From positions 62,001-126,000 of the forward strand of contig JACWEQ010000001.1 of the NCBI GenBank assembly GCA_014653365.1: a stretch of DNA of 64,000 nt. Reading direction: 5' to 3'. The DNA comes from Pelagibacterales bacterium SAG-MED49 (GTDB taxonomy: Bacteria; Pseudomonadota; Alphaproteobacteria; Pelagibacterales; Pelagibacteraceae). This document shows, one piece after another, positions 45,362 to 52,458 of this stretch. A program made the translations under genes and the position numbers. The notes below the pieces were generated by a model. The model had not been told where the DNA came from, made no database searches, and was given only the letters and a program-made list of their open reading frames with translations. Position 1 is the stretch's first letter. The number at the start of each line of letters is the position of its first letter.

Positions 45362-45421
45362 ATAACTCTTGTTAAACACTCTAAATCTTAGTAAACAAGG
45401 CCTAATTTAAATTAACACGCA

Positions 45422-45490
45422 CACAGTTGTTGGTTTTATACCTCCGGTCCTTAATTGGAAATTACTGTGGTGGCTTAACCGGGAATAAAT
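45422..45490 (+). promoter_or_regulatory. Structured leader RNA of rpsB-tsf, candidate S2-responsive pseudoknot
   Basis: A stem CACAGT (45422-45427)/ACTGTG (45464-45469) encloses a 36-nt loop. Within that loop CCGGT (45444-45448) is perfectly complementary to ACCGG (45478-45482) just outside the stem, with one extra T-G pair (45443-45483). This makes an H-type pseudoknot that covers the GGGA next to the rpsB ATG (45491). The loop also has a small GGT/ACC hairpin (45432-45442). In E. coli, S2 represses rpsB-tsf through its 5' leader, so an analogous autogenous element is likely; the fold and its ligand are inferred. Confidence 0.65.
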
Positions 45491-46309
45491 ATGAAGATAC
45501 CAGAAATAACAATACAACAATTATTAGAAGCAGGCGTTCATCTTGGTCACAAAACCTTGAGATGGAATCCAAAAATGAAAAAATACATTTTTGGAAAAAG
45601 AGATTCAATCCACATCATGGACTTAACTCAAACACTGGAACTTACTAAAATAGCTCTTGAAAAAGTTTTTAATACAGTTGCAAACAATGGAAAAATTTTA
45701 TTTGTATCAACAAAAAAACAAGCTTCAGAAGCTATTGCAGAAGTTGCAAAAGAAACAGATCAATATTTTGTTAACTACAGATGGTTAGGTGGCATGTTAA
45801 CTAATTGGGGAACAATATCAGGTTCAATTAAAAAGATGAAAAAATATGAAGCCGATCTTGTTGCTGAGAACAGAGGTTTTACTAAAAAAGAACTTTTAAA
45901 GATGAGTGTAAAAAAAGATAAACTTGAAAGATCATTAGGTGGAATTGCTGAGATGAAAAAAACTCCAGATTTGGTTTTTATTATTGATACTAATTACGAG
46001 TCTTTAGCTATTGCTGAGTCTGTAAAATTAGGAATACCGATTATTGCAATCTTAGATAGTAATTCAAATCCAGATAATATTGATTATCCAATTCCAGGCA
46101 ATGATGATGCAAGAAGATCTATAGATCTATATTGTAATCTAATTAAAGAAACTATTAATAATGCAAAAAGTTCAATACCTGCAGCTGAACCTAAAAATGA
46201 CATTTCTAAAGAAAATAAAAAAAATCATCAAGGTAAAACTGTTCAAGAACTAGATAGAGAAAAGTTAGAACAAAAATTTTCTAAAGATAAAAAGGAGACG
46301 CTGAATTAA
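45491..46309 (+). CDS. rpsB: 30S ribosomal protein S2
   Basis: This 272-residue ribosomal protein begins '[20 protein letters not shown]' and contains '[15 protein letters not shown]', '[19 protein letters not shown]' and '[27 protein letters not shown]', all hallmarks of S2. The C-terminal 30 residues are a charged, Lys/Glu-rich extension. It is preceded by a structured leader and followed 1 bp later by tsf, the conserved rpsB-tsf pair. An AGGAG (46293-46297) inside its end may help initiate tsf. Confidence 0.98.
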
Positions 46310-46310
46310 T

Positions 46311-47162
46311 ATGAGTGATATTGAAAAGGTTAAAAAGCTAAGAGAAATCACTGGCGCAGGATTTAAAGATTGCAATTTAGCAATTAAAGAATCGGGTAGT
46401 GATATTGATAAAGCTATTGAAATATTAAGAGTAAAAGGTATTTCAAAAGCTTCAAAAAAAATGTCTAGAGATGCTAAAGAAGGTGTGATCGCTGTTAGTG
46501 GTGATGAGACAAAAACATCTGTAATAGAAGTTAATTGTGAAACAGATTTTGTTGCAAAAAATGAGGATTTTACTAATTTTGTTACTGAACTTAGTGAGTT
46601 AAATAATCAAATAAACTCTAACTTTGAGGAATTAAAAAACTCAAAAATGAACAATGGCGAAACGGTTGAAAATAATATTGTAGCTTTAATTGCAAAAATC
46701 GGTGAAAAAATAACTATTGGTAAAACAAAAACTGTAGAAAATGCTGGTTCTCTAAATAATCACTATTTGCACACAGTTGTAAAAGACAATATAGCTAAGT
46801 TAGCTGTTGTAGTGTCATTAGAGACAAATGATAAATCCGATAATGTTAAAACTTTTGCCAAACAATTATCAATGCATATTGCTGCTTCAAACCCACTAGC
46901 TCTAGAATCTAGCTTAATAGACCAATCTATAATTGATAAAGAACAAGAACTTGTTACTGAAGAATTAAAAAATTCAGGTAAGCCAGAAGATATTGCAAAA
47001 AAAATTAGCATAGGTAAAATGAATAAGTTTAAGGAAGAGAACGCTCTATTAACACAAGCATGGGTAATGGAACCTAAGAAAAAAGTTCAGGATGTTTTGC
47101 AAGAACTTTCTATTTCTGATTTAAAGGTTAAAGAGTTTTATAGAATTAAGATTGGAGAGTAA
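46311..47162 (+). CDS. tsf: Elongation factor Ts
   Basis: This 283-residue guanine-nucleotide exchange factor for EF-Tu has an N-terminal UBA-like domain '[20 protein letters not shown]'. The signature '[14 protein letters not shown]' with the Asp-Phe that intrudes into EF-Tu follows, then '[13 protein letters not shown]'. The C-terminal part '[19 protein letters not shown]' is typical. Usually pyrH follows tsf; here frr starts on the very next base after the stop. Confidence 0.97.
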
Positions 47163-47714
47163 ATGTTTGATGAAAAATCATACAGCCTTAAAATGGATAA
47201 AGCCATTGAGGTTTTCTTAAAAGAATTATCATCACTAAGAACAGGAAGAGCAAATGCAGCAATGCTAGATCTTGTCAAAGTCGATGTCTATGGACAACAA
47301 ATGCCAATTAACCAAGTTGGAAGTATTACAACTCCTGAACCAAGAATGATAAATATCCAAGTTTGGGACGCAAGTAACGTTGCTCTAGTTGATGCGGCAA
47401 TAAAAAAATCAGACTTAGGGTTAAATCCTCAAATTGACGGACAATTGATTAGACTACCGGTACCTGAGTTAAATGAGGAACGAAGAACAGAATTAAAAAA
47501 AATTATAAAGTCAATTGGAGAGAAGTGTAAAGTTTCTATTAGAAATGTTAGAAGAGAAGCTAATGAAGAACTAAAAAAACTTTTGAAATCAAAAGATATT
47601 GGTGAAGACGAAGAAAAATCATCTGAAAAAAATGTTCAATCAATCACTGATGAGCATATTAAAACCGTAGATGAAAAGGTTTCTTTAAAAGAAAAAGAAA
47701 TAATGACAATATAA
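47163..47714 (+). CDS. frr: Ribosome recycling factor
   Basis: This 183-residue factor splits post-termination ribosomes together with EF-G. 'LSSLRTGRANAAMLDLVKVDVYG' and 'ITTPEPRMINIQVWD' are the core signature. 'RLPVPELNEERRTELKKIIKS' and 'VSIRNVRREANEELKKL' complete the helical domain. Length is typical. It directly follows tsf without the usual pyrH between them and is followed 1 bp later by uppS. Confidence 0.98.
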   Translation: MFDEKSYSLKMDKAIEVFLKELSSLRTGRANAAMLDLVKVDVYGQQMPINQVGSITTPEPRMINIQVWDASNVALVDAAIKKSDLGLNPQIDGQLIRLPVPELNEERRTELKKIIKSIGEKCKVSIRNVRREANEELKKLLKSKDIGEDEEKSSEKNVQSITDEHIKTVDEKVSLKEKEIMTI

Positions 47715-49034: not shown

Positions 49035-50197
49035 TGAAAACAAAAATTGCAATTCTTGGCTCAACTGGTTCTATTGGTAAAACTTTATTAGATATTATAA
49101 GAAAAGATCAAAAAAATTTTGAAATCATACTCTTAACAGCTGATAAAAATTATAAACTATTATTAAAACAGGCAAGAGAATTTAAAGTTAGAAACTTAAT
49201 TATAACAAACAAAAAAAAATTTGATTTAATAAAAAATAACTCAGTTAAATTAAATTTAAATATCTATAATAATTTTGTTAATTTTAGTAAAATTTTTACT
49301 AATAAAGTTGACTATACGATGAGTTCTATCACTGGAATTAGTGGCTTGGAACCAACATTAAAAATTATTAAATATTCAAAGAGAATTGCAATAGCAAATA
49401 AAGAGTCAATAATATGTGGATGGAATTTAATAAATAAAGAATTAAAAAAAAATAATACAGATTTTATTCCAGTAGATTCCGAACATTTTTCATTATGGTA
49501 TGGCATTCAAAATTTAGATATTAATAAAATTGAAAAAATATTCTTAACAGCTTCTGGTGGGCCGTTTAATAAACTACCATTAAATAAATTTAAAAATATT
49601 ACAATTGCTCAAGCTATTAGGCATCCAAATTGGGAAATGGGAAAAAAAATTTCTATAGACTCAGCAACCATGATTAATAAAATCTATGAGGTGATTGAAG
49701 CAAAAAATATTTTTAATTGTAGTTATAAAAAAATTGAAATTTTAATTCATCCAAATTCTTACGTGCATGCTATTTTGAAATTTGATACTGGAATAACTAA
49801 AATTGTAGTCCATGATACTACAATGCGAGTTCCAATTTTTAATACGCTATATTACGATGATAATAAGAAATTAAAATCTAAAAAAATAGATATTGATAAA
49901 TTAAATAATTTAGATTTAAAAAAAATAAATATTAAAAGATATCCTATGATCAGATTATTAAACCTTCTACCTTCCAAACATTCATTGTTTGAAACTGTTG
50001 TAGTTTCTGCAAATGATACTTTGGTTCAGCTCTTTCTTGAAAATAAAATTAAATTTACAGATATTCAAAAAAAATTATTTAATATTATTAATAAAAAGCA
50101 ATTTACAAATTATAAAAATAAATCACCTAAAACAATTAGAGATATTGTGGAATTAAATAATTATGTTAGATTGAAAACACTTGAAAACAATATATAA
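49034..50197 (+). CDS. dxr: 1-deoxy-D-xylulose-5-phosphate reductoisomerase
   Basis: This 387-residue NADPH-dependent enzyme makes methylerythritol phosphate for isoprenoids. The dinucleotide loop 'ILGSTGSIGKTLLDII' is at the N-terminus. 'ANKESIICGWNLI', 'PVDSEHFSLW', 'LTASGGPFNKL' and 'HPNWEMGKKISIDSATMINK' supply metal and substrate residues. Downstream bamA starts 14 bp later; the rseP protease gene that commonly sits between dxr and bamA is absent. Confidence 0.96.
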   Translation: MKTKIAILGSTGSIGKTLLDIIRKDQKNFEIILLTADKNYKLLLKQAREFKVRNLIITNKKKFDLIKNNSVKLNLNIYNNFVNFSKIFTNKVDYTMSSITGISGLEPTLKIIKYSKRIAIANKESIICGWNLINKELKKNNTDFIPVDSEHFSLWYGIQNLDINKIEKIFLTASGGPFNKLPLNKFKNITIAQAIRHPNWEMGKKISIDSATMINKIYEVIEAKNIFNCSYKKIEILIHPNSYVHAILKFDTGITKIVVHDTTMRVPIFNTLYYDDNKKLKSKKIDIDKLNNLDLKKINIKRYPMIRLLNLLPSKHSLFETVVVSANDTLVQLFLENKIKFTDIQKKLFNIINKKQFTNYKNKSPKTIRDIVELNNYVRLKTLENNI

Positions 50198-50211
50198 ATC
50201 ATCATTTATAT

Positions 50212-52458
50212 ATGAGCAAAATTAAAATATTTCTATTATCATTTCTTTTAAACTTTTTAGTATTTTCATCCTTTTCATTTAGTGAAATTATTAAAAAAAT
50301 TGAAATTACAGGAAATAATAGAATATCAGATGAAACTATACTGATGTTTTCTAAAGTTGATATAGGACAATCTGTTAAAAACGATAAAATTAATCAAATA
50401 TTAAAAGATCTATATAATTCAAACTTTTTTAATAATGTTTCTGTTAAAATTGAAAAAAATACACTTTTTATTAAAATTGATGAGGCTCCACTCATCAAAG
50501 ATATTAAAATCACAGGTGTTAAAGCAGAAAAATTTAAAAAGGCAATAAGAGATAGTTTGATTTTGAAGCCAAGAAGATCTTTTAACAATTTTTTATTAAC
50601 TAAGGAAAAAACAATTATACAATCAAAACTAAAATCTGCTGGTTATTATTTTGTAAATATAGATCCTATTATTGAACTACTAGATGATAATATGGTTAGC
50701 ATTAATTATAAGATAGATTTGGGTGAAAAATCAAAAATTAGAAAAATTTCATTTATAGGTGATAAGATTTATAAAGATAGTAAATTAAAAAGTATAATAA
50801 TAAGCGAGGAGTATAAATTTTGGAAATTTATTTCTGGTAAAAAATTTTTAAGAGAAGAAACAATTGAAATTGATAAAAGATTACTTAAAAATTTTTATTT
50901 AAATAAAGGATTTTATAATGTTGAAATTAATACTTCTTTTGCAAAATTAATTAATGAAAATGAATTTGAATTAATTTTTAATATCAATCCAAATCAAAAA
51001 ATTTTTTTTGGTGACATGAATTTTATTTTACCAAATGATTTTGATGAAAAAAATTACAAAGATTTAAATAAATTGTTAGTTGATTTAAAAGGAGAACCGT
51101 ATTCAATTTATTCTGTAGATAAAATACTTAATGAAATTGATCTAATTACCATTAATGATGAATATAAATCAGCCAATGCTTATGTAAAACAAAATATAGT
51201 TTCAGATAGGTTAAATATTGATTTTGTTGTTGAAGAGGGCGAGGCTTTTTTTATAGAAAGAATTAATATACTTGGAAATAACGTTACGCGAGAAAATGTA
51301 ATTAGAAATCAATTAGAAATTGACGAAGGAGATCCGTATAATGAAATTTTAGCAAATAAATCTTTAAATAATCTTAAAAGTTTAAATTTTTTTAAAAGTG
51401 TAAAAACCGATGTTATTACTGGTAAAAATTTAAATTCTAAAATTATAAATTATAATTTTGAAGAGAAACCTACTGGAGAAATTGTAGCAGGTGCAGGAGT
51501 TGGCACAGACGGAGGAAGTATTTTCTTTGGTGTTAAAGAGAATAATTATTTAGGTAAAGGACTTTCAGTAAATACTAATGCGACTATATCGACAGAATCA
51601 TTAAAGGGAAATTTTTCTATTACAAATCCTAATTTTAATAATTCTGATAAATCCTTTTTTATAAATATCAAAGCTGAAGAAACTGATAAATTGAAAGACT
51701 TTGGATATAAAACAAATAAAACTGGTTTTTCTCTTGGAACAAATTTTGAATATTTAAAAGATTTTAATTTAGGATTATCGACTAGCTCATTTGTTGAAAA
51801 AATGGAGACTGATTCAACTGCATCAGCAAGTCAACAAAAACAAGCTGGAAATTATTGGGATACATTTTTAAAATTTAATTTTGATTATGATAAAAGAAAT
51901 CAAAAATTTAAAACTACTGATGGGTTTAGATCATATTATAGCATTGATGTGCCACTTATTAGTGATACGAATACCTTAACTAATTCATATGATTATAAAG
52001 TTTTTAATGAATTTTATGAAAATAATATAACAACTTTTTCTATTTCTTTATCAAGTGCAAATTCTATCTCTGATGAAGATGTTAAATTATCAGAACGTCT
52101 TTTTATACCTTCTAGAAAATTACGAGGTTTTGAAAGTGGTAAAGTTGGTCCTAAAGATGGTGCAGACTTTATAGGCGGTAATTATCTTACAACTTTTAAT
52201 GTTCAAACCAATGTTCCAACGATTTTTGAAAATGCTCAAAACTTGGATGCTGTAATTTTCTTTGATGTGGCAAGCCTTTGGGGCGTTGATTACAACTCGT
52301 CATTAGACGATGGAGGTAAATTACGTAGTTCATTAGGTATAGGAATCGACTGGTTTACTGTAGTTGGACCTTTGAGCTTTTCACTAACTGAAGTTATTAC
52401 TAAAGAAGATACTGATAAAACTGAAAAATTTCGATTTAATCTAGGGACAACATTCTAA
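50212..52458 (+). CDS. bamA: BamA outer-membrane protein assembly factor
   Basis: This 748-residue Omp85 protein inserts beta-barrel proteins into the outer membrane. A signal peptide (residues 1-25, ending near FSFSE) precedes five POTRA repeats to about residue 415. The barrel follows, with the conserved 'LRGFESGKVGPKDG' (VRGF-type) lid motif and a terminal aromatic 'FRFNLGTTF'. Length is typical. The last base overlaps the skp-like gene (TAATG). Confidence 0.96.
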   Translation: MSKIKIFLLSFLLNFLVFSSFSFSEIIKKIEITGNNRISDETILMFSKVDIGQSVKNDKINQILKDLYNSNFFNNVSVKIEKNTLFIKIDEAPLIKDIKITGVKAEKFKKAIRDSLILKPRRSFNNFLLTKEKTIIQSKLKSAGYYFVNIDPIIELLDDNMVSINYKIDLGEKSKIRKISFIGDKIYKDSKLKSIIISEEYKFWKFISGKKFLREETIEIDKRLLKNFYLNKGFYNVEINTSFAKLINENEFELIFNINPNQKIFFGDMNFILPNDFDEKNYKDLNKLLVDLKGEPYSIYSVDKILNEIDLITINDEYKSANAYVKQNIVSDRLNIDFVVEEGEAFFIERINILGNNVTRENVIRNQLEIDEGDPYNEILANKSLNNLKSLNFFKSVKTDVITGKNLNSKIINYNFEEKPTGEIVAGAGVGTDGGSIFFGVKENNYLGKGLSVNTNATISTESLKGNFSITNPNFNNSDKSFFINIKAEETDKLKDFGYKTNKTGFSLGTNFEYLKDFNLGLSTSSFVEKMETDSTASASQQKQAGNYWDTFLKFNFDYDKRNQKFKTTDGFRSYYSIDVPLISDTNTLTNSYDYKVFNEFYENNITTFSISLSSANSISDEDVKLSERLFIPSRKLRGFESGKVGPKDGADFIGGNYLTTFNVQTNVPTIFENAQNLDAVIFFDVASLWGVDYNSSLDDGGKLRSSLGIGIDWFTVVGPLSFSLTEVITKEDTDKTEKFRFNLGTTF

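Follow-up and report, generated by a model that had tools for sequence, protein, structure and literature searches.

The rpsB motif (Rfam RF01815) was first described from the gap between dnaE and rpsB of 'Candidatus Pelagibacter ubique' (positions 873155-873283, 129 nt). It consists of a stem, P1, two short helices, P2 and P3, and a pseudoknot in which the P2-P3 junction (J2-3) pairs with the extension on the 3' side of P1; almost all published copies lie directly before rpsB (Meyer et al. 2009, PMC2704228). In the literature searched, the phrase 'rpsB motif' occurs only in that paper. An rpsB RNA was also reported in SAR11 strain HIMB5 as known but unannotated in the dataset concerned (2019, PMC6429828); it comes from the same clade as the leader studied here, and we liken the two by description, on the available text of that source. 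The E. coli rpsB leader (t44/tff, RF00127), which precedes the same gene, is S2-responsive according to the available portions of the literature (PMC2704228, PMC10931766). There, excess uS2 represses rpsB-tsf, the operator excludes both the Shine-Dalgarno sequence and the start codon, S1 assists, and the level of the bicistronic mRNA falls (2024 review, PMC10931766).

The rpsB leader of the window

The DNA analyzed, hereafter the window, is a 64,000-nucleotide stretch of Pelagibacterales bacterium SAG-MED49. Its dnaE-rpsB gap contains a leader (Table 1) that is the rpsB motif, RF01815. The earlier note, made from the letters of this DNA, had described a stem closed by CACAGT and ACTGTG and a CCGGT in its loop complementary to ACCGG just before the rpsB ATG. 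Both pairings are present in the sequence. The stem is longer than described, with a bulged A and a CGC/GUG helix beneath it; the structure begins at 45418, and the start formerly given, 45422, is the inner part of P1. The pseudoknot was also said to hide the GGGA next to the start codon, but it covers just the first two of the four bases (45481-45482), so the word is only half hidden.

Table 1. Elements of the leader and the genes around it (window positions; row counts refer to the SAR11 leader alignment)
Feature	Position	Strand	Basis or remark
dnaE, 1145-codon ORF	ends 45361		named from published gene order and its sequence
dnaE-rpsB intergenic region holding the leader	45362..45490	+	129 nt, from ORF ends
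P1a 5' strand CGC, partner 45470-45472	45418..45420	+	outer and inner pair invariant in 131/131 rows
Bulged A separating P1a and P1b	45421	+	same bulge position as RF01815
P1b 5' strand CACAGU	45422..45427	+	two-sided changes in 5/6 pairs
P2 5' strand GGU, partner 45440-45442	45432..45434	+	two-sided changes in 2/3 pairs
P2 3' strand ACC	45440..45442	+	alignment pair counts
Pseudoknot 5' strand CCGGU, P2-P3 junction	45444..45448	+	sequence, alignment, direct parse, tree
P3 5' strand CC, partner GG 45457-45458	45449..45450	+	two-sided changes in 1/2 pairs
P3 3' strand GG	45457..45458	+	alignment pair counts
P1b 3' strand ACUGUG	45464..45469	+	sequence and alignment
P1a 3' strand GUG	45470..45472	+	RF01815 match and alignment
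Pseudoknot 3' strand ACCGG, -13 to -9 from rpsB ATG	45478..45482	+	sequence, parse, tree, spacing
GGGA, weak Shine-Dalgarno-like word, two bases shared with pseudoknot strand	45481..45484	+	sequence; putative role
rpsB, ribosomal protein S2	45491..46309	+	TIGR01011, 307.9 bits, cut-off 76.3
tsf, elongation factor Ts, 1 nt past rpsB	46311..47162	+	TIGR00116, 239 bits, cut-off 104.05

The anatomy is that of the motif published from another species: the same gap directly upstream of rpsB, a long P1 with a bulge, a P2 of three pairs and a P3 of two (the lengths found in 'Cand. P. ubique'), and a pseudoknot in which J2-3 forms five pairs with the extension 3' of P1 (available text of Meyer et al. 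2009, PMC2704228). One genome of our set, G026, has its rpsB start at 873284 behind a gap of 129 nt and, judging from these coordinates, is probably the published 'Cand. P. ubique' strain; its leader shares 70 of 73 core bases with that of the window. The earlier note had pointed to the Rfam leader families, and RF01815 did match at the leader (45418-45500, 29.6 bits, E 2.3e-4 in the 221-base stretch scanned), but under the gathering cut-off of 40. The G026 copy (C1:873211-873292) likewise fell short with 33.3 bits. Anatomy and homology to G026, rather than the Rfam score, are the grounds on which we assigned the leader to the published motif, the gathering score being an operating threshold and not a structural trait. 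At Rfam gathering thresholds the window yielded three tRNAs only, and RF00127 (t44) gave 19.1 bits on the leader against a cut-off of 44. The match to RF01815, the published anatomy and the near identity to G026 rule out a new RNA family, and the novelty that the earlier note implied is lost to a motif published from the same bacterial group (Meyer et al. 2009, PMC2704228).

Pairing across SAR11 leaders

Folding of the single sequence said little. The minimum free energy was -17.1 kcal/mol, compared with -16.45 +/- 3.13 for shuffled sequences (z -0.21; 68 of 200 shuffles as good), as computed by a program that cannot form pseudoknots. Energy alone does not set the leader fold apart from chance; comparison across relatives does. 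In the minimum-energy fold of the window copy CCGGU lies in a local hairpin with AUUGG (-3.8 kcal/mol for the hairpin alone), which leaves the ACCGG strand free. We considered a conserved version of this hairpin, UCCGGU/AUUGGA, as an ON state and rejected it, many other SAR11 leaders being unable to form it whole when the alignment was inspected by eye.

Thirty of the loci compared (L001-L170) came out of a protein search that covered 197 family genomes and matched rpsB in 156, and 60 more were picked from the list it gave. The other 80 were the best ones retained from 581 relatives in a contig scan and are therefore biased to near kin. L080, whose contig begins inside rpsB, was dropped, leaving 169 leaders, 131 of them distinct over 84 nt. 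In a structure-blind MAFFT alignment of these 131 rows, 97.4% of 2476 cells paired, whereas the structure slid along the alignment paired only 28.8-51.9%. Changes on both sides of a pair occurred at 10 of the 19 pairs (shuffled mean 5.0) and in 111 cells (shuffled mean 17.7), and none of 500 shuffles was as high on either count, with the caveat that related rows can beat shuffles of this kind.

Six of the nine P1 pairs had changed on both sides in the 131 rows. Non-standard pairs were seen at the middle P1a pair (20 of 131 rows) and at the inner P3 pair (11 of the 126 rows with letters there). Among the five pseudoknot pairs one was changed on both sides, one was invariant and three departed only by unpaired cells; seven rows of the alignment are one column out of register at the pseudoknot. 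Direct parsing succeeded for 130 of the 131 rows and gave CCGGT/ACCGG in 127, CCTGT/ACAGG in two and CCGGT/ACCGA in one. The strands were thus complementary in 129 of 130, the exception being L169, where the end pair is broken; the unparsed row, L115, has CCGGT/ACCGG on direct reading of the letters. Covarying pairs, which the proposed fold implied for both helices, were found in both across the SAR11 leaders, many in the stem and one in the pseudoknot. P1 and the pseudoknot are conserved, covarying pairings at the right place.

The pseudoknot change was followed within the genus using L001-L106 and L244-L270, which after skipping L080 and merging identical rpsB genes gave 120 distinct rows. 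Four of them (L039, L069, L246 and L250) carry CCTGT/ACAGG and the other 116 CCGGT/ACCGG; one side alone was never changed. The exchange replaces a single G-C pair of the pseudoknot with U-A. The tree needs two changes, and its starred branches also force two. Two separate origins of the U-A pair are likely rather than settled, because the tree was built quickly from a single gene, rpsB, with stars on 33 of its 117 inner branches, and none of the starred sets of up to half the rows includes L250. If strains had exchanged leaders, the result could look like a second origin. The base that follows the P3 3' strand (A at 45459 in the window) is U in all four U-A rows and in none of the 116 others (102 A, 14 G as parsed). 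This is no strict rule, because other SAR11 genera combine U at that position with CCGGU in the family alignment. A base triple, or balance with the competing hairpin, is a possible explanation of the U. Among variant rows of the genus, all 10 of those at the third P1 pair and 17 of the 19 at the fifth had two-sided changes; sign tests had little power, with one to two independent pairs on starred branches per trait.

Distribution and distance to the start codon

With stricter filters RF01815 matched 130 of the 197 family genomes at E up to 10 and none over its cut-off, and the weakest matches include some that are not next to rpsB. Four of the genomes without a match (G043, G069, G101 and G005) were found on direct reading to carry the motif (loci L152, L154, L114 and L164). 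The Rfam cut-off would miss the leader in every one of these 197 genomes of abundant ocean bacteria. In the class, which from its named Pelagibacteraceae contigs we take to be Alphaproteobacteria, 181 of 289 genomes matched at E up to 0.01 and 73 exceeded the cut-off. Of 14 named control genomes, three matched at E up to 10, one (Caulobacter) at 0.01 and none over the cut-off. A model built from the SAR11 alignment gave a single standout match in the genome of the window (104.2 bits; next best 20.3). It also found the RF01815 place in all of L171-L200, the 30 best RF01815 scorers of 70 non-SAR11 loci, with E from 2.7e-8 to 0.53; E was 0.018 or lower at 24 of these, the remainder being weak, and seven had E above 0.01.

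Eight nucleotides (45483-45490) separate the end of ACCGG from the rpsB ATG at 45491. This distance was also the median of 128 SAR11 rows and was exactly 8 nt in 95 of them. The 128 are the 131 distinct rows less L115 (unparsed) and L128 and L143 (no ATG at that place). These three leaders, from one SAR11 genus (g6), lack ATG at the rpsB start, where TTG is the likely start codon. Shine-Dalgarno words (AGGA, GGAG or GAGG) before the ATG were absent from 116 of the 128 rows, overlapped the pseudoknot strand in six and lay wholly downstream of it in six. A pattern for the 16S tail matched neither the genome of the window nor any of 10 near-complete relatives. A duplex estimate with an E. coli-type 16S tail, which may not be that of the host, placed the best site at GGUG (45469-45472) in the P1 3' strand and not at GGGA. 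Only seven of the 54 window ORFs of at least 150 aa have a Shine-Dalgarno word, and therefore its loss is general in the window.

For non-SAR11 leaders we used L171-L240 (70 loci, one duplicate dropped, 56 of 69 parsed and 13 unparsed), a sample chosen by RF01815 matches that may favor the canonical form. The median distance was 16 nt; a separate Shine-Dalgarno word lay downstream of the pseudoknot strand in 49 of the 56 rows, overlapped it in three and was absent in four. Short spacings were found in two rows (5 and 9 nt). The available literature on the rpsB motif yielded no remark on the pseudoknot-ATG spacing in SAR11. A tentative and rather doubtful idea is that the SAR11 leader was shortened and the pseudoknot strand took the place of a lost Shine-Dalgarno word, so that what had been an operator upstream became an on/off lid directly over the start site, held in balance by the competing hairpin or stabilized by a base triple.

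Proposed control of rpsB-tsf and the genes downstream

The published motif (PMC2704228) is in line with both the fold and its proposed role in regulating rpsB-tsf, and the covariation on which the earlier note had staked its fold was found. We put the probability of an RF01815-type motif together with S2-responsive control at about 0.8. In the leader P1 with its bulged A is capped by short P2 and P3 helices, and the P2-P3 junction pairs with the strand 3' of P1 to give the pseudoknot. In the proposed mechanism free S2 (with S1), when in excess over 30S assembly, would bind the folded leader and thereby lower rpsB-tsf translation; S2 is the probable effector in SAR11 by analogy with the E. coli work in the portions available (PMC2704228, PMC10931766). 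Because the pseudoknot ends 8 nt before the ATG, the folded SAR11 leader is predicted to block 30S binding directly, a step to which, taken alone, we give about even odds. We propose it for SAR11 only, because the E. coli ribosome binding site lies outside the operator and the details there are described as unclear; it may not carry over, since the same operator leaves out both Shine-Dalgarno sequence and start codon (available text of PMC10931766). The spacing in SAR11 provides a natural test of the mechanism of repression by S2 leaders, the details of which are called unclear in the 2024 review (PMC10931766, in the part available).

The E. coli leader has CACACA and GUGG words similar to the SAR11 stem base, and its GGGGU and ACCCC can be read directly from the letters as a pair in places equivalent to the SAR11 pseudoknot strands. 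It differs in its much longer upper stem; its paired strands also stand 24 nt away from the ATG, and a separate GAGG precedes the start. It scored 83.5 bits with the t44 model. RF01815 gave no match to it at E up to 0.1 and the SAR11 model found it at no better than E 0.33, so that our grounds for relating the two leaders are Meyer et al. 2009 and a reading of the letters.

The same leader could instead let S2 (with S1) act at a distance, hampering initiation or lowering the mRNA level, the pseudoknot serving only as one piece of the site that is bound. Only the last step sets this alternative apart from our preferred explanation, and it is possible at clearly less than even odds. It is what the E. 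coli operator would suggest, given the position of Shine-Dalgarno sequence and start codon, the help of S1 and the fall in bicistronic mRNA (PMC10931766, in the part available). The equivalent E. coli strand, read directly from the letters, is also well upstream. Against it, the SAR11 pseudoknot strand, at a median of 8 nt from the ATG in the 128 rows, ends inside the 30S footprint.

It is improbable that the leader mainly senses EF-Ts, S1 alone, temperature or salt, the fold being a simple sensor or standby site. The competing hairpin of the window copy, which frees ACCGG, would suit such a sensor, and the role of S2 in SAR11 is drawn by analogy, but by eye many relatives have not kept that hairpin, nearly every published copy of the motif stands before rpsB, and the E. 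coli leader responds to S2 (available portions of PMC2704228 and PMC10931766). Coincidental complementarity between short GC-rich words in AT-rich DNA would fit a folding energy no better than that of shuffles, and we give it practically no weight: it is ruled out by the pairing of 97.4% of cells in the 131 rows, far above the slid structures, by two-sided changes at 10 of 19 pairs and by the compensated pseudoknot changes on two branches. S2-responsive control through an RF01815-type leader is the reading that we retain.

The earlier note had suggested that the control may extend beyond tsf to the whole run of genes ending with lpxB. Thirteen same-strand genes follow one another as far as 57149, and no gap between them exceeds 36 nt (ORF starts as listed). 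No terminator-like site was found on the + strand of the run and one on the - strand (2.9 expected); promoter-like sites were as frequent as in shuffles (96 vs 95.0). Control of the whole run by the leader is possible, being compatible in the sequence with the close spacing and with the lack of a + strand terminator-like site. Profile models support rpsB, tsf, frr, uppS, cdsA, dxr, bamA, fabZ, lpxD and lpxA, with cdsA (98.9 of 385) and dxr (315.5 of 315.7) below the model cut-offs; the names of the genes at 52458, 55231 (lpxI-like) and 56013 (lpxB-like) are ones we presume.

Two genes common in this neighborhood are missing from it. rseP often stands between dxr and bamA; here no rseP-like gene separates the two, which are only 14 nt apart (50197-50212). 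pyrH, usually found between tsf and frr, is absent from that place (47162-47163). Of 41 genomes of the genus, including 8 with a completeness of 90% or more, none exceeded the cut-off of the pyrH model TIGR02075 and 40 gave weak matches; 10 of the 14 control genomes exceeded it.
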